DNA from: Chloroflexota bacterium
Lineage (GTDB): Bacteria > Chloroflexota > Dormibacteria > CF-121
Assembly: GCA_005881175.1 (NCBI GenBank)
Contig: VBEN01000024.1
Span: 1-34,343, forward strand
Length of the DNA: 34,343 nt
Reading direction: 5' to 3'
Below, one piece after another: positions 10,576-27,142 of this stretch. Position 1 is the first letter of the stretch. Every line of letters starts with the position of its first letter. Position numbers and translations under genes: made by a program. The notes beneath the pieces were generated by a model. That model did not search any database and was not told the DNA's origin. It was given only the letters and a program-made list of their open reading frames with translations.

Positions 10576-10585
10576 CACCGCTCGC

Positions 10586-10948
10586 ATGGCGAATACCCAG
10601 TCGGCAAAAAAGCGCGTGCGCGCCTCGCTGCGGAAGCGCGATCGGAATCGCTCCACCCGCTCGGCGGTGAAGACGCTGGTCTCGCGTGCCAGGCGCCCGG
10701 CGCTGCCGGATGCGGCCAGCCTGACGAGCGAAGAGGTGCGCCGTGCCATCAGCGCGCTCGACAAGGCCGCAGAAAAGGGCGTCCTGCATGCGAATAATGC
10801 CTCCCGTCGCAAGGCGCGCCTGATGAGTGCGCTCGCCAAGCTGGCCCCGGCTGCCGAGCCGCAGCAAAAGGCCCCTCCCAAAAGTAGAACCAAAGCATCA
10901 CCGGCCCTGGCAAAGCCGGCGACGAAGACCGGAAAGACCCGCTCCTAG
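10586..10948 (+). CDS. rpsT: 30S ribosomal protein S20
   Basis: S20 binds 16S rRNA early in small-subunit assembly. The family start MANTQSAKKRVRASLRKRDRN fixes the ATG at 10586; the ORF-track extension upstream runs through the repeat and promoter. The core continues NRSTRSAVKTLVSRAR, AISALDKAAEKGVLHANNASRRKARL. At 120 residues it is about 30 longer than usual because of a Pro/Ala/Lys-rich basic tail after residue 88. The TATAAT box lies 10 nt before the ATG. Its TAG stop shares the four bases CTAG with the stop of the convergent haloperoxidase gene. Confidence 0.95.
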   Translation: MANTQSAKKRVRASLRKRDRNRSTRSAVKTLVSRARRPALPDAASLTSEEVRRAISALDKAAEKGVLHANNASRRKARLMSALAKLAPAAEPQQKAPPKSRTKASPALAKPATKTGKTRS

Positions 10949-12474
10949 GTCAAGTCGCCGTTGATATAGCTCTGGGCGCGGGCCCAGGCGAGCTCGGCGA
11001 CGCGGCGCCCGGCGGCCCTCGCCTCGAGGTCAGCCTGCTCGAAATGGATCCCCCCGTAGCGCCGGGAGAGCCCGGCCTGGTTCGCGGCATCACTGAAGGT
11101 GTGCCAGCGCAGCGTCAGAGCGCTCGCCGGGACGGCCCCGGGTTCGACCTTCGAGCTCCCGGCTGAAAACGTAACCGATGCGCCGAAGCGATCGCTGCGG
11201 GTGAAACGTCTCAGGATTTCCGCCCCGGCCGCGCTGAAAGTACTATGCCCCGAGCTGTACTCCGCAAAGGGCGGCGTCGGGAAGGTGGACGCTTGATACG
11301 GCAACCACTCGGAACCGTCCAGCAGCCGGGTACCTCGATACGGCCCACCCCAGGCACGGACCTGCTGTCCCTTAAAGGCGTAGCGGATGGCCGTGATTGG
11401 CCGGACCGAATCGAAGGCCCGCTTGTTATCCCAGCAGCAGATGCTGGCATCAAAGATCGCGTTCGTGAGGCCGAAGAAGAGCTTGACGTCGGCCTCCACC
11501 CCGTGCCGGTGGGCACCGTGATGGTCACGCCGCGAGACAAACTGAGCGAAGAGGTTCCAGTGTCCGGGCGGTAGTTCGGAATGAGGCCCGTCTGCCCAGT
11601 ATTCGGCGATCATCTTCTGCTCGTCGGTAAGAGCAGCGCTGAGGCCGAGCAGGGCACCAGCCTGTGACTCAAAGGCGCGCGATCCGAGCCTGGCCGGCCC
11701 GCTCGGGGATCGCAACTGGGCGACGCTGCTTAGCCCGAATGGCGTGACGTGCTGCCATTGGGCGCCCACGAAGGCCTGCGTCACAACCGCTCCGCTCGCG
11801 TCAACGTAGCGCAGCGGCTGCCACCGATTCGGGTCGTGGACCGCCGCTCCGTCGAAGTGGCTGCCCGGTCGTAGATCCATGGGATCGTTGACCGGCGCGT
11901 AGCGCGTGTAATCGGAGTAGGCGACACCGGGATTTCCACCGGGCTCATCGCCCAACTGGTTCGCGCCGTCGCGGTGCCGGTACTCGAGGACCGCCTGGGC
12001 GGCCAGATTGCCGACTCCGGCGGCAGTGCTGAGGTCGGTCGTCGTGTTGGCCGGGTCGTACCCCAGCCGCCTCATCAGCGGGTCGAAGACACTCACGCGG
12101 TCGCCGGGAAAGAGATCGACGGCCGCGCGGTAGGCGGCGAAGCTGACGGCCGTGTTGATGTTGGCAAGGGTGCGTTCCCAATGCGGTCGCCGGAGAGCTC
12201 CGCCGAATCGCGTCCCGATGGCGCGATCGTCGTACGCAGCCCAGGCATCAAAGACGCTCGTATGAACGATGGCCAGCGCGCGGGCAACCATCGGCGGGCC
12301 AAGCTTCGAATCCCGGGCGCCCTGAAGTGCCGCGTCGTTCCAGAGCAGAACGACGCTATCGCCGGAGGCGAATACGTCAAGCGGGACAGCGCCGAGCGCT
12401 GGGGCGGCCGCCGCCAGCACTCCCCACTTGAGCGCAGTTCGGCGCGTAATCCGCAGAGATTCGCGCTTGCTCAT
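10945..12474 (-). CDS. Tat-exported vanadium-dependent haloperoxidase / PAP2-superfamily protein
   Basis: A 509-residue protein with a twin-arginine signal (ITRRTALKWGVLAAAAPALG), so it is probably folded with its cofactor and exported. The C-terminal half carries the vanadate/phosphate site of the haloperoxidase-acid phosphatase superfamily in order: KRAFDSVRP (about 350), YSSGHSTFSAAG (about 405) and SRRYGGIHFEQAD (about 470). The family oxidises halides with peroxide or hydrolyses phosphate esters; the sequence cannot decide which. The start is supported by AAGGGG a few bases upstream of ATG 12474. It is the last of three minus-strand genes for exported proteins (13802 to 10945), and its stop shares CTAG with rpsT. 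Confidence 0.88.
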   Translation of the reverse strand: MSKRESLRITRRTALKWGVLAAAAPALGAVPLDVFASGDSVVLLWNDAALQGARDSKLGPPMVARALAIVHTSVFDAWAAYDDRAIGTRFGGALRRPHWERTLANINTAVSFAAYRAAVDLFPGDRVSVFDPLMRRLGYDPANTTTDLSTAAGVGNLAAQAVLEYRHRDGANQLGDEPGGNPGVAYSDYTRYAPVNDPMDLRPGSHFDGAAVHDPNRWQPLRYVDASGAVVTQAFVGAQWQHVTPFGLSSVAQLRSPSGPARLGSRAFESQAGALLGLSAALTDEQKMIAEYWADGPHSELPPGHWNLFAQFVSRRDHHGAHRHGVEADVKLFFGLTNAIFDASICCWDNKRAFDSVRPITAIRYAFKGQQVRAWGGPYRGTRLLDGSEWLPYQASTFPTPPFAEYSSGHSTFSAAGAEILRRFTRSDRFGASVTFSAGSSKVEPGAVPASALTLRWHTFSDAANQAGLSRRYGGIHFEQADLEARAAGRRVAELAWARAQSYINGDLT

Positions 12475-12502
12475 GATCCCCTTCCTCGGTGATGTGACAG
12501 GT

Positions 12503-12525
12503 GAGCGCTGGCGCTGACAGCGCTC
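12503..12525 (-). other. Intergenic inverted repeat in the exported-protein cassette
   Basis: GAGCGCT and AGCGCTC (7 bp) flank a 9-nt loop, between the haloperoxidase start and the upstream secreted protein gene. There is no T run, so it is not a standard terminator; it could stabilise or attenuate the transcript. Confidence 0.45.
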
Positions 12526-12546
12526 CCCGTGCCGGACGACAACAAC

Positions 12547-13095
12547 TTAATGGATCGTAACCTGACCCTCCAGCAGGATCTCCTGGAACGCTAGTCCCGA
12601 GATGACCAGCGTCGCCGTGGTGCCAGGGCCCCCTGCCTTCACAGTGAATGTGAAGGGCTCGTTTGTCCCCGCTCCTAGACCCGTGACGGTTGCCGTCCCG
12701 TGCAGGACCGCGGTTCCGTCTTTCACCGTTACCGACGTGACCTTGCCCGTCACGTACATCGCGTTCACCTCAAAGTCCCCGCTCTCCGGACTAAAGCTTG
12801 TCGCCACCGGGGGCATGAGTGCCAGGCACTCGAAGGCGCCACCCTGCGCATTGGCGTGGAAGGCCAGAACGGTGGTCACCGGTACAAGTCCGGGTCCGCC
12901 GCCCTCGATGATGGTCTTTCCGCCACCCGCTACTTGGTGGCCTCCATCTTTCGCGGCTCCAGCGCTTACGGGCAGCGCCGCGGACGCCAAAAGACCGAGC
13001 GCCAGCAGGATTCCTGCCCATCCGCCCACGCGACGTAACCATCGAGTCATCCCGCGCCGCGACTGCCTGTTCGAAAATCCGTCTTCTGCGACCAT
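12547..13095 (-). CDS. Secreted beta-rich protein of unknown function
   Basis: I do not recognise this 182-residue protein. It has a basic N-terminus, then a hydrophobic export segment (GWAGILLALGLLASAALPVSAGA, about 25-47), then a small domain rich in Val, Thr and Gly with alternating hydrophobic residues (GKVTSVTVKDGTAVLHGTA, PFTFTVKAGG), suggesting a beta sandwich. One Cys only (FECLALMPP). The ATG at 13095 is supported by GGGGAGGAG about 6 nt upstream; an internal ATG at 13050 (MTRWLRRVGG) would give a more standard signal length. It lies between two Tat-signal proteins and is probably co-expressed with them. It resembles, in size and composition, the other small exported protein of the cassette only loosely. 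Confidence 0.7.
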   Translation of the reverse strand: MVAEDGFSNRQSRRGMTRWLRRVGGWAGILLALGLLASAALPVSAGAAKDGGHQVAGGGKTIIEGGGPGLVPVTTVLAFHANAQGGAFECLALMPPVATSFSPESGDFEVNAMYVTGKVTSVTVKDGTAVLHGTATVTGLGAGTNEPFTFTVKAGGPGTTATLVISGLAFQEILLEGQVTIH

Positions 13096-13128
13096 CCCGT
13101 GCTCCTCCCCTTTAGCCGATCTACATTC

Positions 13129-13156
13129 AAGGGAGACGGCTGCGGCCGTCTCCCTT
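13129..13156. other. Strong intergenic hairpin in the exported-protein cassette
   Basis: AAGGGAGACGG and CCGTCTCCCTT pair perfectly over 11 bp (12 with the closing C-G), around a TGCG tetraloop. It sits between the stop of the 13182-13802 gene and the start of the 13095 gene. Only two or three T residues follow on either strand, so it may be a partial terminator or an mRNA stabiliser that sets different expression levels along the cassette. Confidence 0.6.
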
Positions 13157-13181
13157 TCATGCCGTGATTGCCACCGTCTAA

Positions 13182-13802
13182 CTAATCGTCGCGCTTACCA
13201 AGAAAGTGGAAGACCGTGGGACCACCAAGCCAGTGCGAGAAGTCGACGTACTCTCTGGTTGCGGTAATACCTTCGAACATGCAGTCGGGAGCACCCGGCA
13301 GGTGGCAGTCAACTGTCAGCACACCGCTCCTGCCATCGTCGTACTTGATCCTGAGCAAAACCAGACCGGCTGTTGCTGTCGCCTTTGTTCCTCCGGGAAT
13401 GCAATCCTCGAAGGGAGGGAACTGCCCGCCTGGCGCCGGGGTCCAGCTCAGCAGTTCGGTAACGCGGTAGTGGCCCGAGCCGGGGAGGCAGCGCGCATCA
13501 GCGGACGATACCGTCCAGGTTCCCCCGCCGGTGACGCCGCGAACGCATCGATTGCGGACGTTCGGAAAGGTCCCGGAGCCGGTCATCATGATGGTCGTTG
13601 CACCTTCGGCTTGCGCGGACGAGGTGCCACCGGGGCTGACGCAGCCGTCGACGATTTGGATCAGGTCCCATCGAACCCGTCCGCGGCCCTCCCCCTCATC
13701 TCCGTCGGCGAAGGCTGTGACCGGTGTCCCCAGGGCACCGGCGACACCCGCCGCCCCTACGCCTTTGAGGATCTGTCGCCGCGTGATGCGCAGGTCTTCC
13801 AT
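13182..13802 (-). CDS. Tat-exported cysteine-containing protein of unknown function
   Basis: The 206-residue product begins MEDLRITRRQILKGVGAAGV, a clear twin-arginine signal with an AFADG cleavage region. ATG 13802 has GGAGGGAG about 6 nt upstream, so I reject the longer ORF-track start. The mature part is acidic near its start (DGDEGEGRG), then has about seven cysteines in a beta-rich domain (VDGCVSPGG, RNRCVRGVTGGGTW, ARCLPGSG, EDCIPGG, VDCHLPGAPDCMFEG), probably disulphide bonded outside the cell. I recognise no family. It is the first gene of the three-gene exported cassette that ends with the haloperoxidase. Confidence 0.75.
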   Translation of the reverse strand: MEDLRITRRQILKGVGAAGVAGALGTPVTAFADGDEGEGRGRVRWDLIQIVDGCVSPGGTSSAQAEGATTIMMTGSGTFPNVRNRCVRGVTGGGTWTVSSADARCLPGSGHYRVTELLSWTPAPGGQFPPFEDCIPGGTKATATAGLVLLRIKYDDGRSGVLTVDCHLPGAPDCMFEGITATREYVDFSHWLGGPTVFHFLGKRDD

Positions 13803-13991
13803 GGCACTCCCTCCTTGAGAGAACAAGCGACCCTGCTCCCGAGGCCCGGTCCCCTTGCCGGGCAGGATCACGCTAAGCGAAATTGGTGCCCTTGGTCAAG
13901 CGAAACTTTCACCTTTCTTTACGGGCAAGCTGCGCTGCGTCAGATGAGCTTGAGCGAGGCGGCCAAAGGTTGCCGCCGACGCCGTAAGGGC

Positions 13992-14978
13992 CTAGCCTGC
14001 GGTGCTCAGCACCTGCTCGAGAATGAAGCCCTCAACGGCAAGCCGGGCATCGAGCTCACCCAACTTGATCTGCTCTTCGAGCTTGAGCAGCTGGTGGAAC
14101 CCGCGGTCCAGCTCGGCGGCGCTGTAGTCGGCCGCCTGGCGGAACGCTTTTTCCAGGACGAAGGGATGCTCCGAAAGTCTCGCCTGCAGGTCGGCTACTG
14201 TCCCACCACGATCCCGAATCGCGCGCGCCTGCAGCAGGCGGCGCCAGTGGCTGACCAGCGTGTAAAGCAGCCAGGTTGGTTCACGTCCCGCATCGAGCAA
14301 TGACTGCAGCACCCCGGCCACCTCGCCCGGGCGCGAGCTCCCCAGGGCATCGGTCAGGGCGAAGATCTCATCTTCGCGCGTGTCGCTGACCAGTGCACGC
14401 ACCGCGTCCTCGTCGATACGGGTCGATGGCAGCGCATAAATGGCGAGCTTGACGATCTCCTGGTCCAGCAGGCGCAGGTCGGGCGCTGCGCGCTCGAGCA
14501 GGAGCCGTACCGCGGTCGGCGTGATCGTCAGCCCGCGTTCTTCCGCGAGCTTGCGCACCCAGCCGGCGCGATCCGACCGGCGGGGCGGCTCGTAGCGCAG
14601 GATCCGGGCGCGCTTATCGCGTTCCATCGCCGCCACGGTTTTGTAGATCGGATTACCCGGCGCAATCGCCGCGTGGATGACAAGGATGAGCTGGGTCGTG
14701 TCCGGAATGCCCTCCAGATACGCGGCTGCGCGCTCCGCCCCGGCCCCCTTATCCCGTTTACCTGCCAGCAACCCCCAATCCCGGAGCACCAGGACACGGA
14801 CGGCGTCGATGAAGGGCAGGGTGCCGGCCTTCTCCGCGAAGGCATCAGCGCTCAGGCCGTCAGCCTGCAGATCTTCGTAGTTGAACTCCAGCGTGAGGCC
14901 CGAGCGGACGGGCTGCAGCAGGTCGCGAGCCGCCCGGTCAACCAGGTAGCTCTCGCCCCCGTGGACGAGCGTGATCAC
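13992..14978 (-). CDS. holA: DNA polymerase III subunit delta
   Basis: HolA is the clamp-loader subunit that opens the beta clamp during replication. The 328-residue protein begins VITLVHGGESYLVDRA, the usual start for the family; the ORF-track extension (15029) runs into the upstream gene. It continues with KAGTLPFIDAVRVLVLRDW, a segment RAGWVRKLAEERGLTITPTAV and LRLLDQEIVKLAIYA, then DEIFALTDALGSSRPGEV and LLYTLVSHWRRLLQARAI, all typical of delta domains II and III. The GTG at 14978 lies 13 nt after the stop of the dehydratase gene, so it is probably transcribed with it. The C-terminus ends EGFILEQVLSTAG. Confidence 0.9.
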   Translation of the reverse strand: MITLVHGGESYLVDRAARDLLQPVRSGLTLEFNYEDLQADGLSADAFAEKAGTLPFIDAVRVLVLRDWGLLAGKRDKGAGAERAAAYLEGIPDTTQLILVIHAAIAPGNPIYKTVAAMERDKRARILRYEPPRRSDRAGWVRKLAEERGLTITPTAVRLLLERAAPDLRLLDQEIVKLAIYALPSTRIDEDAVRALVSDTREDEIFALTDALGSSRPGEVAGVLQSLLDAGREPTWLLYTLVSHWRRLLQARAIRDRGGTVADLQARLSEHPFVLEKAFRQAADYSAAELDRGFHQLLKLEEQIKLGELDARLAVEGFILEQVLSTAG

Positions 14979-14991
14979 GAGGCCATGCGGT

Positions 14992-15372
14992 CTACTTCGC
15001 CTGGCTGCTCGCGCCCGCCGTTGGCGCAAAAACCCGGTCGATCTTCGCCGCCATGTAGAAATCGCTCTCGGTCAGGCCGTCGATTTTGTGCGTCCAGAGG
15101 TAGGCGCGCACCTCGCCCCAGCGGACATAGAGGTCCGGATGGTGACCTTCGGCCTCGGCGACCGGCGTGATCCGGTTTACGAAATCGACGGCGGCCACCC
15201 AATCCTTCACCTTGAACGACTTGATCAGCTTCTTATCGTTTTCGACCTGCCAGTCCTCGAGTTGCGCGAGCAGCGGCGCGATCTGCTCGTGGGTCAACGG
15301 GGGCGTCCCCCCTCGGCAGGGAACGCATTTGTTATCGGCGAGATTCGACGATGCCACGGCGGGCTCCTTCAT
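14992..15372 (-). CDS. 4a-hydroxytetrahydrobiopterin dehydratase (pterin carbinolamine dehydratase)
   Basis: A 126-residue PCD/DCoH protein that dehydrates 4a-hydroxy-tetrahydropterins. The catalytic motif is clear: AEAEGHHPDLYVRWGEVRAYLWTH, followed by KIDGLTESDFYMAAKID. An N-terminal CVPCRGG precedes the domain, as in many bacterial members. Its start overlaps the RpiB-like gene by 41 bp; a GTG at 15357 is an alternative start with a smaller overlap. In bacteria without phenylalanine hydroxylase this family is often placed beside molybdopterin genes; moaA lies just upstream here, which fits an accessory role in pterin metabolism (inference). Confidence 0.9.
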   Translation of the reverse strand: MKEPAVASSNLADNKCVPCRGGTPPLTHEQIAPLLAQLEDWQVENDKKLIKSFKVKDWVAAVDFVNRITPVAEAEGHHPDLYVRWGEVRAYLWTHKIDGLTESDFYMAAKIDRVFAPTAGASSQAK

Positions 15373-21236: not shown

Positions 21237-21818
21237 TCAGTCGCGATGAGCGCAGGCGGTCGCAACCGCGGCAAACGCCGCCTTCAACCCAGCCAGGTCC
21301 GTCGTGCGGGGTGCCTGTAACAGGGTCTGTAGGTTCGTGATGGCGGACTGGCAAGCCGCACTCGGAGCCGGCAGGCACGCCGTGCGCGCCGCCGTCAGGG
21401 CATTGCGCCACTGTTGCGCCTCCGCCAGGTCTTCGGCGCGCGCGGCCTGCAACGCGGTCAACGACAGCGGTTGCCGGCTGGCCAGCTCCGCGGCGTCCTC
21501 GGCCACCTCGGCCTGATGCAAGGCCTTCAAGGCATTGATCGCCTGCTGGCAAGCGGCTGACAGCGTGAACCTGGCCGCCGCCGGCTTGACCGCCGCGAGC
21601 GGTTTTTCGGCAGGCCCGGCGATCGCCGGCGCCGTGATGGCCCCGCGGGTTGCCACGGAGACCTCGTCGCGGTCGGCCCTCATGATGGTTGTCGTCCCTG
21701 CAACCAGGCTCACGACGCTCCCCGGCGAGCCCTGGTGGCTGTTGCTGCTGGCGTTCGCGGTGAGGGTTGCGATCCCGATGGCCGCGATCGCCCCCGTTAT
21801 CATCGCCTTTGTTCGCAC
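21237..21818 (-). CDS. Secreted helical protein with two Cys-containing repeats
   Basis: I do not recognise this 193-residue protein. A signal peptide (MITGAIAAIGIATLTANASS) is followed by a low-complexity Ala/Pro linker. The C-terminal part has two related helical units: SAACQQAINALKALHQAE ... TAARTACL, and SAACQSAITNLQTLLQAP ... AVATACA. Each unit begins with SAACQxAI and ends with TAC, so each probably forms a disulphide-closed helical hairpin. GTG 21818 has AAGGAGG about 7 nt upstream. It lies alone between the kinase gene and the Tad genes and ends at the terminator at 21188-21213. Confidence 0.72.
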   Translation of the reverse strand: MRTKAMITGAIAAIGIATLTANASSNSHQGSPGSVVSLVAGTTTIMRADRDEVSVATRGAITAPAIAGPAEKPLAAVKPAAARFTLSAACQQAINALKALHQAEVAEDAAELASRQPLSLTALQAARAEDLAEAQQWRNALTAARTACLPAPSAACQSAITNLQTLLQAPRTTDLAGLKAAFAAVATACAHRD

Positions 21819-21947
21819 GATTCGTCCTCCTTGGCGGGTAGTCGTCTTGTAAAACGGCGACGGCTGAGCCCGCTTACGCCCGGTTAAGAATCATCTAGAC
21901 CCCTAGGCGAACGTTAGTTCGGAACGGCTCGAATCACGGTCGCGGAG

Positions 21948-23783
21948 TCAGGGCACGAGGTGGACCGGCCCGCCCTTCAGGCCGACGGCCACTGTCACTG
22001 TGTCGTAGGTGATGGTCGCCGGACCCGTGACGTACTGCAGCTTCCACCAGTCTTGTCCTGGCGGCGGGTTGTAGGAGGACGGAATCGGAATTTCGAGGTG
22101 GATCCACTGGCTATTGGCTGACACCCCGGTGCGGGTGTCCACGGCGGTGAAGGACGCCAGCCGGTTGGTGGAGGCGCTGGCCCAAACCCGATAATTCCGC
22201 GCCGCGAGACTCGAGCGCTTTTGGCCCAGATCGTAGATATTGATGCCCAACGGCGAGGTCGCGACCGCCCCCGCCGGGTCCAGGATATTGATGGCGACAA
22301 AACCGCTCGTGCTGAAGACGTCGCCGGGGTCCCAGAGATCGATCGTAACCGTGAGGCCGGCGTAGTCACGGGGCAGCTGGAACAGATTCATGGTGAAGCT
22401 TCCCCCGAGTCCGGCATCGAATGGGGTGAAGAAGCACATGTCGTACCAAGCCGCTGTCTGGCAGCTGGTGCAGGCAGTGCGGCTGGCATCACCATTGACC
22501 GCGCGCAACGCATAACCTTTCTTGCCGATCGTGCTCGAGCTGGTAAAGCTCCGCCCATTGTTGTCCAGGGTGTCGACCCGCAACCGGTAGGTACCGGGCA
22601 CCAGCACGCCTCCCTGGTCATAGGTGCTGAATGCCCCTGTCTGCTGCAAGCTGACAAGGCCGTCGTCCTGCGGCTCGCTGTACGTGGCGGGGTCAATCCA
22701 ATTGTGATAGATCAGCATGTTGGTTGGCAGACCACCCGAGTAGCTCTGCGTCACCCTGCGTCCCCGACTCGAGCCGCCCATGACGAGGTACTGGTTCGAT
22801 GCCATCGACCAGTTGCTGGCGTCGATGGGGTAAACAGTGGTCTGCGAAAGGAGCACGTCGCTGCTGCGAATGAAGAGATTGTTCACCCAGTAAAGGCTGT
22901 AGCGCATCGCCGGATAGTTCGCGGCCGTCGCCCCGCCCATGTCGTCGTCCTCGTGATACCAGCTGATCCCACGGGTCGAACACGCGCGCAGAGCCGGGTT
23001 CTGGTTGTCGTTATTGCAGAAGTTTGCCGCGGCGCCGTACCCATCGGGGGCATAAGCGGCGTTGTAAATCTGAATCACCCCGCCCGCCCCACCACCAGGG
23101 ATGGTGACGCGGTAGTTGTAGCCTCCTCGGTCGGAAACCGAAGGATCCATGAGCTCCGTGGCGTTGGCGTAGCTGATCTGGTGGACGTCGTCCGTGGCGC
23201 CGGCACCGGCGGGCGGATTGAACGGACTTGGCGTGAAGGCGTCGCCATACCCGCGGTCGGTACCCCAACCCTCAGTCCGCATGAACGAGAACCTTGTGCG
23301 TCCCAGCTCGCCGAGCGCAGCGCCCAGCTGGCTCCCGGGCTCGCCCAGGGAGATCGGCGGCAGGTAGGCCGCCACCGCGATCTTCTTTACAACATAGGGG
23401 CGGAAGCCGAACGCCTCCATGAAAAATACCGGTGCCGTGCGCTCGACGGTCACCTGGAGCTGGTTCGGGTAGCCGGTGACCCGACTCGGGGTGACCACGA
23501 TCCCGTTGGCCGCGTCGGCGGTGTCGAACCCGTTGCGCCTTGCCTCGTCGAGGGCGCGGTCGGTCGCATCGTTACGCGATCCCGGCGGCATGGCATTACT
23601 CGGGCTGAACTGGTCGGGCATGAAGACGACCCCAGACAGGGCGGCAGCGGCCGCGGCCCGCTCGGTGGCGACGCTATAGAAATAACCGACCACCATGTCG
23701 ACCCCCAGACCAACCCCAGCGATGAGCAATGTCCCGGCCATGGCGACCACGACGATGGCCTGCCCGAATTGCGAGCGTTTCAT
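21948..23783 (-). CDS. TadG-like pilus-associated protein
   Basis: The 611-residue protein begins GQAIVVVAMAGTLLIAGVGLGVDMVVGYF, the type of N-terminal hydrophobic helix found in TadG-like (Tad_N) proteins, then ERAAAAAALSGV. The long extracellular part is Gly/Asn/Tyr-rich with repeated beta-like segments (GTYRLRVDTLDNN, GLTVTIDLWDPGDVF) and about six cysteines (NFCNND, RACSTRG, ACTSCQTAAW). Members of this group sit at the cell surface as part of Flp/Tad pilus machinery or as adhesins. Its ATG overlaps the stop of the preceding TadE-like gene (ATGA). No CpaF-type ATPase or TadB/C is in the window. Confidence 0.82.
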   Translation of the reverse strand: MKRSQFGQAIVVVAMAGTLLIAGVGLGVDMVVGYFYSVATERAAAAAALSGVVFMPDQFSPSNAMPPGSRNDATDRALDEARRNGFDTADAANGIVVTPSRVTGYPNQLQVTVERTAPVFFMEAFGFRPYVVKKIAVAAYLPPISLGEPGSQLGAALGELGRTRFSFMRTEGWGTDRGYGDAFTPSPFNPPAGAGATDDVHQISYANATELMDPSVSDRGGYNYRVTIPGGGAGGVIQIYNAAYAPDGYGAAANFCNNDNQNPALRACSTRGISWYHEDDDMGGATAANYPAMRYSLYWVNNLFIRSSDVLLSQTTVYPIDASNWSMASNQYLVMGGSSRGRRVTQSYSGGLPTNMLIYHNWIDPATYSEPQDDGLVSLQQTGAFSTYDQGGVLVPGTYRLRVDTLDNNGRSFTSSSTIGKKGYALRAVNGDASRTACTSCQTAAWYDMCFFTPFDAGLGGSFTMNLFQLPRDYAGLTVTIDLWDPGDVFSTSGFVAINILDPAGAVATSPLGINIYDLGQKRSSLAARNYRVWASASTNRLASFTAVDTRTGVSANSQWIHLEIPIPSSYNPPPGQDWWKLQYVTGPATITYDTVTVAVGLKGGPVHLVP

Positions 23784-24346
23784 CCCAGAATCGGTGCCGC
23801 CTTCATGACCGAATAGTCGGAGAGGGTGAGGTTCTTGGGAAAGATGCCGGCCGGAGCGTTGTAGGTCCAGACCAGCCTGACCCCAATGGAAGTCTCGTTG
23901 GGGGGAGTCTGCTTTCGCTTGTTGATGGGGAAAGTCTGCGTCCCGACGGTCACGTCACCACCAGGGCTGATGAAGTACTTATCGACGAGATCCACGCCCG
24001 ACCGATAGTTGCCGTCCTCCCTCGTGGGCGCATAAATATCGATTTCTGACACGGTGCTGGATGTCATGCCGCCGGCCATCGCTAGAACGTTATGGACGAT
24101 CTGCATGTCGATATCGGCGGTCGTGGCTCCCGGGTTTGACTGCGACCCGCCGAGCTCCGCCGCCAGGCGAGCGCCCTGGCGAACGGCGGACCCGGACGTG
24201 ACTTTGTCCGAGGCCATGATGCTGGCGTCGAAACCACCCATGAGCAGCAAGGCGAGCAAAGGGGTCAGAATGGCGAGCTCCACGAGAGACTGGCCGAGCC
24301 GGCGATGCCGATCGGGCGCACAAGCGAAACGGAGGCGTGTCCGCAT
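23780..24346 (-). CDS. TadE-like pseudopilin
   Basis: A 188-residue TadE-family protein with the N-terminal prepilin-like helix GQSLVELAILTPLLALLLMGGFDASIM preceded by basic residues (RHRRLG). The rest is a short extracellular domain ending VMKAAPILG. The real start is the ATG at 24346, one base after the stop of the previous TadE gene; the ORF-track start (24469) lies inside that gene. It overlaps the TadG-like gene by ATGA. The three genes are therefore one tightly coupled unit that makes minor pilins or surface proteins. Confidence 0.85.
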   Translation of the reverse strand: MRTRLRFACAPDRHRRLGQSLVELAILTPLLALLLMGGFDASIMASDKVTSGSAVRQGARLAAELGGSQSNPGATTADIDMQIVHNVLAMAGGMTSSTVSEIDIYAPTREDGNYRSGVDLVDKYFISPGGDVTVGTQTFPINKRKQTPPNETSIGVRLVWTYNAPAGIFPKNLTLSDYSVMKAAPILG

Positions 24347-24347
24347 G

Positions 24348-24881
24348 TCAGTAGCTCTGCGGCTCCAGCCGGATGTAATGGGTGACGGTGCTCTGCAGCG
24401 GACCGAGCGGCGCCAAAAAGCCAGCCTTCCACCTGTAGGTGAAATGGACGGTAATGCCCAGAAAATCACTGGTGCCGTTGCCGACGTTGCGTGATGCCGC
24501 TGTCCAGGGCTCGGGCATCATCGGGGTGCCGTCAACACGGTACCGGTTGAAGAAGATGGTGTCGGGCGTCAGGTTTCCATTCGCGTCCTGATTGAGCTTG
24601 TAGACGTCGACCTCATCCACGGAAAAGATTCCGGTGGCTCCGACGTGTTCGCGAATCACTCGGATCGACTGGTCATCGGCCGTGGCCGCATTGCCGAGTT
24701 GAGCAGCCATGCGGGCACCGTCAACGGTGGCATAGCGAGCGGTTCCCACGCTGAACATGAGAAGACCGCCATCCAGCACCCCCAGCATGAGCATGAAGAG
24801 CACGGGTAGGACAACAGCGAACTCGGTCATCGCCTGGCCGTAGCCGCGTTCCCCTCGACCCCGCCGCCTTACGGGAATCAT
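24348..24881 (-). CDS. TadE-like pseudopilin
   Basis: A 177-residue TadE-type protein: basic start (MIPVRRRGRGERG) followed by GQAMTEFAVVLPVLFMLMLGVLDGGLLMF, where the Glu five residues after the cleavage glycine fits prepilin-type proteins, then GTARYATVDGARMAAQLG. The C-terminal domain has FLGITVHFTYRWKAGFLAPLG. It is the first gene of the Tad unit; ATG 24881 has GAGGGG 5 nt upstream. The 173 bp to the divergent dehydrogenase hold its promoter; I see no clear box there on the minus strand. Confidence 0.86.
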   Translation of the reverse strand: MIPVRRRGRGERGYGQAMTEFAVVLPVLFMLMLGVLDGGLLMFSVGTARYATVDGARMAAQLGNAATADDQSIRVIREHVGATGIFSVDEVDVYKLNQDANGNLTPDTIFFNRYRVDGTPMMPEPWTAASRNVGNGTSDFLGITVHFTYRWKAGFLAPLGPLQSTVTHYIRLEPQSY

Positions 24882-25983: not shown

Positions 25984-26595
25984 CTAGCGGTTACGGACCT
26001 TTTCCTGGGATGCCTGATAGGCGCGAACCTTTCTGACCTTGGGCTGCGCGTTGACGACGATATAGGGATTTAAGGGATTCCGAGCGGCATAGTCCTGGTG
26101 ATAGGTCTCCGCTGTGAAAAAGGCCTCCAGCGGCGTGACCTCGGTAACGATCGGGGCGTCGAAGACCCGCGCTTTGTTCAGCTGGTCGATGTATGCCTCG
26201 GCCACGCGCTTTTGCTCATCATCGGCGAAGAAGATCGCCGAGCGGTATTGCCGGCCGGAGTCCGGTCCCTGGCGATTGAGCTGCGTCGGGTCGTGCGCGA
26301 TGGAGAAAAACACCTTGAGGATCTGGCCGTAACTGATCTGGCTCGGGTCATAGAGAACCTCGACCGCCTCGGCGTGCTTCGTGGTACCGCTCGAAACCGT
26401 CTCATAGTCTGCGGTCTCGGCTGAGCCACCCGCGTACCCGGATTTGACAGACGAGACACCCTTGAGATTCTTATAGACGGCCTCGACACACCAGAAACAG
26501 CCGCCGGCCAGGACCGCCCGGCTCTGTCCGGCCTTGTCGGCGAGGGCGGAGTCGACGATGGGATCAGGGAAGTCCTCAGGTGAGACGCGCGCCAT
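25984..26595 (-). CDS. msrA: Peptide-methionine (S)-S-oxide reductase MsrA
   Basis: MsrA repairs oxidised methionine. The 203-residue protein has the catalytic motif [17 protein letters not shown] (Cys33), [53 protein letters not shown] and [16 protein letters not shown], all as in the family. ATG 26595 follows a TACAAT box by 6 nt, so the mRNA is probably leaderless. There is no signal peptide, so it is cytoplasmic. The divergent gene on the other side of this short promoter region is an Imm26-like protein. Confidence 0.95.
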
Positions 26596-26632: not shown

Positions 26633-27142
26633 ATGCCTCAGCAAAATGGGGTCAGCCCCAAGCTGGGCGACGTCTTCGCGGTCCCGATCAATGAATCCCA
26701 GGTCGGATACGGGCAAGTAGCAGGGCAACGATTTACGTCGTATCTGCTGGCCATTTTCAAGACGGCCTACCGGCGTGGGGAGCACCCCGAGCTCAGTCGC
26801 ATTACGGCGGATGACATCGCCTTTCTTGCGGAATCGCTCGATGCCAAGATCTGGAATGGCGACTGGGCAATCGTTGGAAACCTCCCGCCTGACCGGTCCC
26901 GTATTCGACTTCCTGTCTATAAGGTGACGGTCGGAAATATCAACAGTTGGTTCGTCGAGAGCTATGACGGGAGCCAGCGAAGGCCGGCGCGCCCAGATGA
27001 GTTGAACGTCCTGGCACTGCGCACCGTGGTCGCGCCCGTACGCCTCGAGAAGGCGTTGCAGGCATTGCATGGCGCCCGGCCCTGGGAACCCACCTTTGAC
27101 CAGCTGCAATACAGCCGGGTGAGCCGTCCCGGTGAGAGCTAA
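26633..27142 (+). CDS. Immunity protein 26 (Imm26)-like protein
   Basis: A 169-residue protein whose N-terminal [24 protein letters not shown] is the hallmark of the Imm26 fold, a small beta-barrel type domain named for polymorphic toxin immunity proteins; the remainder ([32 protein letters not shown]) also fits. No toxin, HNH nuclease or secretion gene is next to it, so immunity is not supported by context; stand-alone Imm26-like genes are often housekeeping-like. The ATG follows TATGCT by 8 nt. Confidence 0.65.

Follow-up and report, generated by a model that had tools for sequence, protein, structure and literature searches.

Three adjacent genes in a window of 34,343 nucleotides from a Chloroflexota bacterium (the whole of contig VBEN01000024.1, assembly GCA_005881175.1), here called A, B and C, probably specify an extracellular halide-oxidising system, in which C, a homologue of vanadium-dependent haloperoxidases (VHPOs), is accompanied by two co-inherited, non-essential exported accessory proteins. 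A sequence-only reading of the window had placed three neighbouring genes on one strand at 10945-13802, and open reading frames were found at exactly these coordinates on the minus strand:

Gene A: 13182..13802 (13802->13182), minus strand; 206 aa, twin-arginine translocation (Tat) signal RITRRQILKG, predicted barrel-like domain rich in beta strands, six Cys including the family-invariant C166
Gene B: 12547..13095 (13095->12547), minus strand; 182 aa, Sec-like signal followed by a predicted domain of eight beta strands; the only Cys of the protein, C90, is invariant in its family
Gene C: 10945..12474 (12474->10945), minus strand; 509 aa, VHPO homologue with a Tat motif

By all sequence tests applied, C is a vanadium-dependent haloperoxidase, and it is very probably able to make bleach-like halogenating agents from halide salts and hydrogen peroxide. 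In Pfam it matched PF21167 (DUF6851; 144.7 bits, E 3e-42) and PF22778 (VCPO_2nd; 115.6 bits, E 3.5e-33), both with a cut-off of 27, and the latter family also scored above its cut-off in the genome search. The full vanadate-binding set is present (K351, R358, S408-G409-H410, R471 and H477), together with W348, P401 and F403. An alignment of 79 rows, in which the window protein is counted twice and several of the residue exceptions are truncated proteins, keeps K351, R358 and H410 in 79/79 rows, S408 in 78, and G409, R471 and H477 in 76. The haloperoxidase homologue proposed from the letters alone, which a lack of vanadate-binding residues would have undermined, therefore carries all of these ligands.

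The best solved relatives of C, aligning over most of its length, are 9l8x, 9ptr, NapH3 and NapH1, followed by the VHPO of Zobellia galactanivorans (4cit) and then by the vanadium chloroperoxidase of Curvularia inaequalis. NapH1, NapH3, 9ptr and 9l8x are full-length homologues (E 1e-46 to 1e-63 in a single-sequence search) that share the K, R, R and H ligands of vanadate. However, where C has SGH410 and TPPF, these enzymes have SG-S, SA-S or SG-F and lack TPPF, so that Ser, Ala or Phe stands at the position of H410. Unlike the NapH-type VHPOs, C also has a putative export signal and the partners A and B, and is flanked mostly by housekeeping genes with no biosynthetic cluster around it; with H410 present in such a setting, C does not fit the NapH type. 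Because C has this histidine and the NapH types do not, its active site would be closer to that of enzymes which set hypohalous acid free than to that of the selective biosynthetic VHPOs. The bacterial Zobellia enzyme aligns with C only partially, in two stretches, but has the active-site segment TPPFPEYTSGHS (TPPF..EYxSGHS) and SRMYGGIHY in common with it. The sequence match with the fungal Curvularia enzyme, for which we know of no partner genes, is restricted to residues 290-426 (E 5e-6). Its W350/K353/R360, P395/F397/S402-G403-H404 and R490/H496 are all matched in C with the same spacing (residue names and roles partly from PMC10427571, partly from general knowledge). The sequence does not tell which halide is preferred; specificity is placed in the outer spheres by PMC11871015.

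Neither A nor B matched a functional Pfam or NCBIfam family (for B, the NCBIfam scan covered the window protein only), in agreement with the claim that two of the three proteins have no recognisable family. By sequence, no solved structure matched either protein, apart from a low-scoring match of B to FUBI/ribosomal eS30 (E 0.004, about 60 residues covered), which is likely due to chance. AlphaFold2 models built from family alignments are confident for A (mean pLDDT 82.6, 120 residues at or above 90) and fair for B (mean pLDDT 75.3, well predicted from residue 110 onward); A is predicted to be all-beta, with some twelve strands, and B to have eight strands. In Foldseek searches B showed a weak likeness to calycin-like beta barrels (YceI-like proteins, nitrophorin and spirotetronate cyclases; best E 0.04-0.06, probability 0.9 for YceI), although TM-scores were low, no match was significant and no sequence relation was found; the matches of A were weaker still. 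A viral origin of A was not supported, with no match in BFVD at E<=0.001, and A and B are not homologous to one another (hhalign probability 4%).

Each family has one invariant cysteine, C166 in A (20/20) and C90 in B (17/17), which is the sole cysteine of the mature protein in most VHPO-linked members. The label "Cys-rich" given to A earlier thus fits the window protein and not its family: the six cysteines are a local elaboration, common to the close relative CF_13 (L066). A fixed disulfide between A and B is an attractive idea with one cysteine in each, but the window's A has a possible in-chain partner in C174.

The linkage of the three genes was surveyed in 110 genomes of the class, with relatives counted at E<1e-20. 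Strong relatives of C were found in 19 genomes, of A in 25 and of B in 15; all 15 genomes with B also had C, and 17 of the 19 with C had A (Fisher p 3e-15 for B with C and 4e-12 for A with C, uncorrected for kinship). The A-B-C order was found in several species of the genus, in another genus of the family and in another family. Relatives of A and B also adjoin a VHPO in metagenome-assembled genomes (MAGs) of Actinomycetota (e.g., as C-B-A) and in other Chloroflexota (B-A-C), and in one Acidobacteriota MAG A and B lie beside a VHPO on the strand opposite to C; these phylum labels are those of the records, and MAG contigs may be misbinned. In a maximum-likelihood tree of 75 C proteins those accompanied by A or B cluster, with 6 changes against 13.9 expected from shuffling. 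Most of them fall in a single group (97/70 support) made up of 19 proteins from soil Chloroflexota and Actinomycetota; some of its unlabelled rows are explained by contig edges (L068) or by a gene A that the simple gene caller did not pick up (L075). Far from varying freely, A and B thus recur beside a VHPO well above chance. In G001, G002 and G010 the cassette is located elsewhere, beside an amidase-like gene, and the placement of the A-B-C unit at different chromosomal sites in sister species supports a functional module.

A number of observations weigh against a dedicated partnership. The VHPO nearest to C (85% identity), that of CF_36 (G007, L064), occupies the same slot between holA and rpsT as the window's cassette, but its 90% complete genome has no A or B; the order there is rpiB-PCD-holA-X-VHPO-rpsT-murJ, and in place of A and B the slot has, on the opposite strand, a pair of genes for exported proteins, one ending in an LPQTG-like sorting signal. 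Outside the group of 19 proteins most VHPOs of the wider family lack A and B, the order and strand of the three genes vary between relatives, and paralogues of A stand alone in many genomes. Furthermore, barrel folds tell little on function, and Foldseek gave no match to the Protein Data Bank (PDB) at E<=0.001 for either protein. A and B have therefore been dispensable at least once, and the three-gene unit is neither obligate nor fixed. The extracellular halogenation system proposed in the sequence-only reading is retained as the best interpretation, but not as an obligate trio.

Starting from the gene content, the catalytic residues, the co-occurrence and the predicted beta folds, we infer how the proteins would leave the cell, what C would catalyse and with which halide, and what A and B would contribute. 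C would leave the cell folded through Tat and bind vanadate via H477, K351, R358, S408-G409 and R471. With extracellular hydrogen peroxide it would turn bromide or iodide, or possibly chloride, into hypohalous acid by oxidation, H410 serving as the acid-base residue; in the vicinity of the cell this product would halogenate or oxidise organic matter, signals or competitors. No hydrogen peroxide-forming enzyme or halide gene was recognised adjoining the cassette; the peroxide may therefore come from the surroundings or from other genes. A and B would be dedicated exported barrel-like accessory proteins acting beside C at the cell surface, where their first-choice role may be the binding of a hydrophobic ligand or substrate near C, and their second the protection of the producer from hypohalous acid, with the lone invariant cysteine as a reactive or tethering site.

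It is conceivable, if unlikely, that C is an active exported VHPO while A and B, both secreted, merely lie in the same variable slot for surface proteins and have no function in common with it. The other exported genes found in the holA/rpsT slot of relatives, among them one for an LPxTG-like protein and one that is sortase-like (L064, L273), would fit this, as would the lone occurrences of A and the absence of both proteins from CF_36; random co-location, however, would not be expected to take A and B along with C to other chromosomal sites and phyla, nor to leave B (E<1e-20) never without C in the 110 class genomes. A protective function in its strict form, with A and B as scavengers or sensors of hypohalous acid whose lone cysteine is oxidised by it or forms an A-B disulfide, is doubtful. 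The single cysteine of most VHPO-linked A and mature B proteins, its invariance and the predicted export of both proteins along with an enzyme making the oxidant are in line with such a role, but the residue is equally invariant in the shorter, Cys-richer A variants of the same alignment, C174 near C166 could cap the latter by an intramolecular disulfide in the window's A, and a stoichiometric scavenger with one cysteine would give poor protection.

Two further alternatives concern C itself. That it is a selective enzyme of a biosynthetic pathway, like Streptomyces NapH1, with A or B shaping the substrate, draws on its full-length homology to NapH1 and NapH3 and on the weak fold likeness of B to the cyclase barrels AbyU and PloI4; this appears improbable given the mostly housekeeping flanks, the putative export signal, the replacement of H410 by Ser, Ala or Phe in NapH types, and a cyclase likeness that is not significant (E 0.08 or worse). 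VHPOs and PAP2 phosphatases have a common fold and vanadate/phosphate pocket, and on this basis C might be no haloperoxidase but a PAP2-superfamily acid phosphatase that is exported. This is very improbable, since its match to PF01569 (PAP2) is weak (13.5 bits against a cut-off of 27.2), whereas PF22778 and PF21167 lie far above theirs, and the VHPO active-site residues W348, P401 and F403 are retained. An exported halide-oxidising VHPO with accessory proteins is the preferred explanation.

As to novelty, the enzyme kind of C is already known, proteins from plasmid records at most 52% identical to it being annotated as VHPO or DUF6851, and the system is a variation on that known family, with no new chemistry. 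The suggestion of a possibly undescribed system may hold for the remainder, as the three-part unit, the A and B families and their tie to a VHPO seem undescribed; in the open literature searched, which took in few subscription journals and so gives weak evidence of absence, no listed title or abstract dealt with the A-B-VHPO set, and nothing was found on DUF6851. The organisms and enzymes that form soil organohalogens are largely unknown according to one published account (PMC4926216), and in a 2018 review (PMC6299022) haloperoxidases of proven activity seemed confined to certain fungi and pseudofungi associated with plants. A putatively exported VHPO whose active site is intact, found with two recurrent partners in MAGs of soil Chloroflexota, Actinomycetota and Acidobacteriota, is a concrete, testable candidate for an organohalogen former. 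A bolder proposal, which we consider rather unlikely, is that of a three-part extracellular halogenation machine, in which A and B set the substrate, position or safety of the secreted VHPO, spread in uncultured soil members of these phyla and acting as one missing agent of soil organohalogen formation. Should A or B alter VHPO selectivity, this would be of use in biocatalysis.

The cassette is flanked by two housekeeping genes, and murJ comes after rpsT on its downstream side:

holA: 13992..15029, minus strand; DNA polymerase III delta, upstream neighbour of the cassette
rpsT: 10577..10948, plus strand; ribosomal protein S20, convergent with C, whose stop it overlaps by 4 bp

The distance between holA and rpsT is 142-175 bp in G001 and G006, and the two genes are also close in several more distant class members without a cassette there, so that the cassette looks inserted at the window slot. 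Across the genus the holA/rpsT interval (window 10948-13992; L064:2651-4200; L273:2505-3520) seems to be a place where genes for exported proteins are inserted: in G007 it has a gene for an LPxTG-like protein next to a sortase-like one, in G011 a related exported protein and in G003 a different insert.

Proteins of the A family were also identified away from any VHPO, at L252:1792-2649, L253:5328-6083 (G218), L254:6595-7161 (G292) and L261:5367-5870 (G043), some of them paired with a relative of B (G218); the family has wider uses than partnership with a VHPO. In three Acidobacteriota loci (L083:3361-4572, L084:3160-4119 and L132:5342-5785) the VHPO follows a different small protein that may be a second type of partner, taking the place of A and B; in L083 and L084 this protein has a Tat-like signal. 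Near an intact A gene in G035 lies a truncated VHPO remnant of 141 aa comprising the C-terminal part only (L260:7421-7843), which suggests cassette decay, and in G001 the VHPO frame (C87:9906-11401; L067:6001-7496) is broken near the N-terminal part by a frame change or a TGA, which points to a pseudogene or else to a mistake in the assembly.

The draft genome to which the window belongs, as contig C136, comprises 2.88 Mb in 246 contigs; its closest relatives with a name are MAGs of soil Chloroflexi in the CF_ series. The genes are separated by 86 bp (A-B) and 72 bp (B-C), and each is preceded by a purine-rich run, AAGGAGGG 5' of A, GGGGAGGAG 5' of B and GAGGAAGGGG 5' of C, consistent with the Shine-Dalgarno sites reported from the sequence-only reading. 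That reading had also described two Tat proteins and one secreted protein. The Tat signal of A is supported by TIGR01409 (21.1 bits, cut-off 16.7), with PF10518 slightly under its cut-off (22.0 against 22.7 bits), and B was judged Sec-like because of its hydrophobic h-region and the lack of a clear twin-arginine consensus; for C the motif ITRRTALKW is visible, but PF10518 reached only 16.2 bits, below that cut-off of 22.7. A TatC gene is present in the source genome. As for the stable hairpins said to lie between the genes, only the first stood out from shuffled sequence:

A-B intergenic hairpin: 13130..13161, minus strand; perfect 12-bp stem, AAGGGAGACGGC/GCCGUCUCCCUU

This hairpin has a predicted energy of -34.4 kcal/mol (z -3.3), and that between B and C was no better than chance (z -0.7). 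The former is not a clear terminator, because no clear U-run follows it on the minus strand, and an operon bounded by terminator-like hairpins was rejected. No match to a sigma-70-type promoter was found at the cassette.

Elsewhere in the window, at 25987-26595 and 26633-27139 and thus some 12 kb away from the cassette, a peptide methionine sulfoxide reductase (PF01625) adjoins an Imm26-family protein (PF15428); a link to oxidant stress is only a thought. Finally, a TadE-like protein (24351-24881) and two proteins without a Pfam match (21240-21818 and 21951-23783), together spanning 21240-24881, are possibly a surface pilus set.

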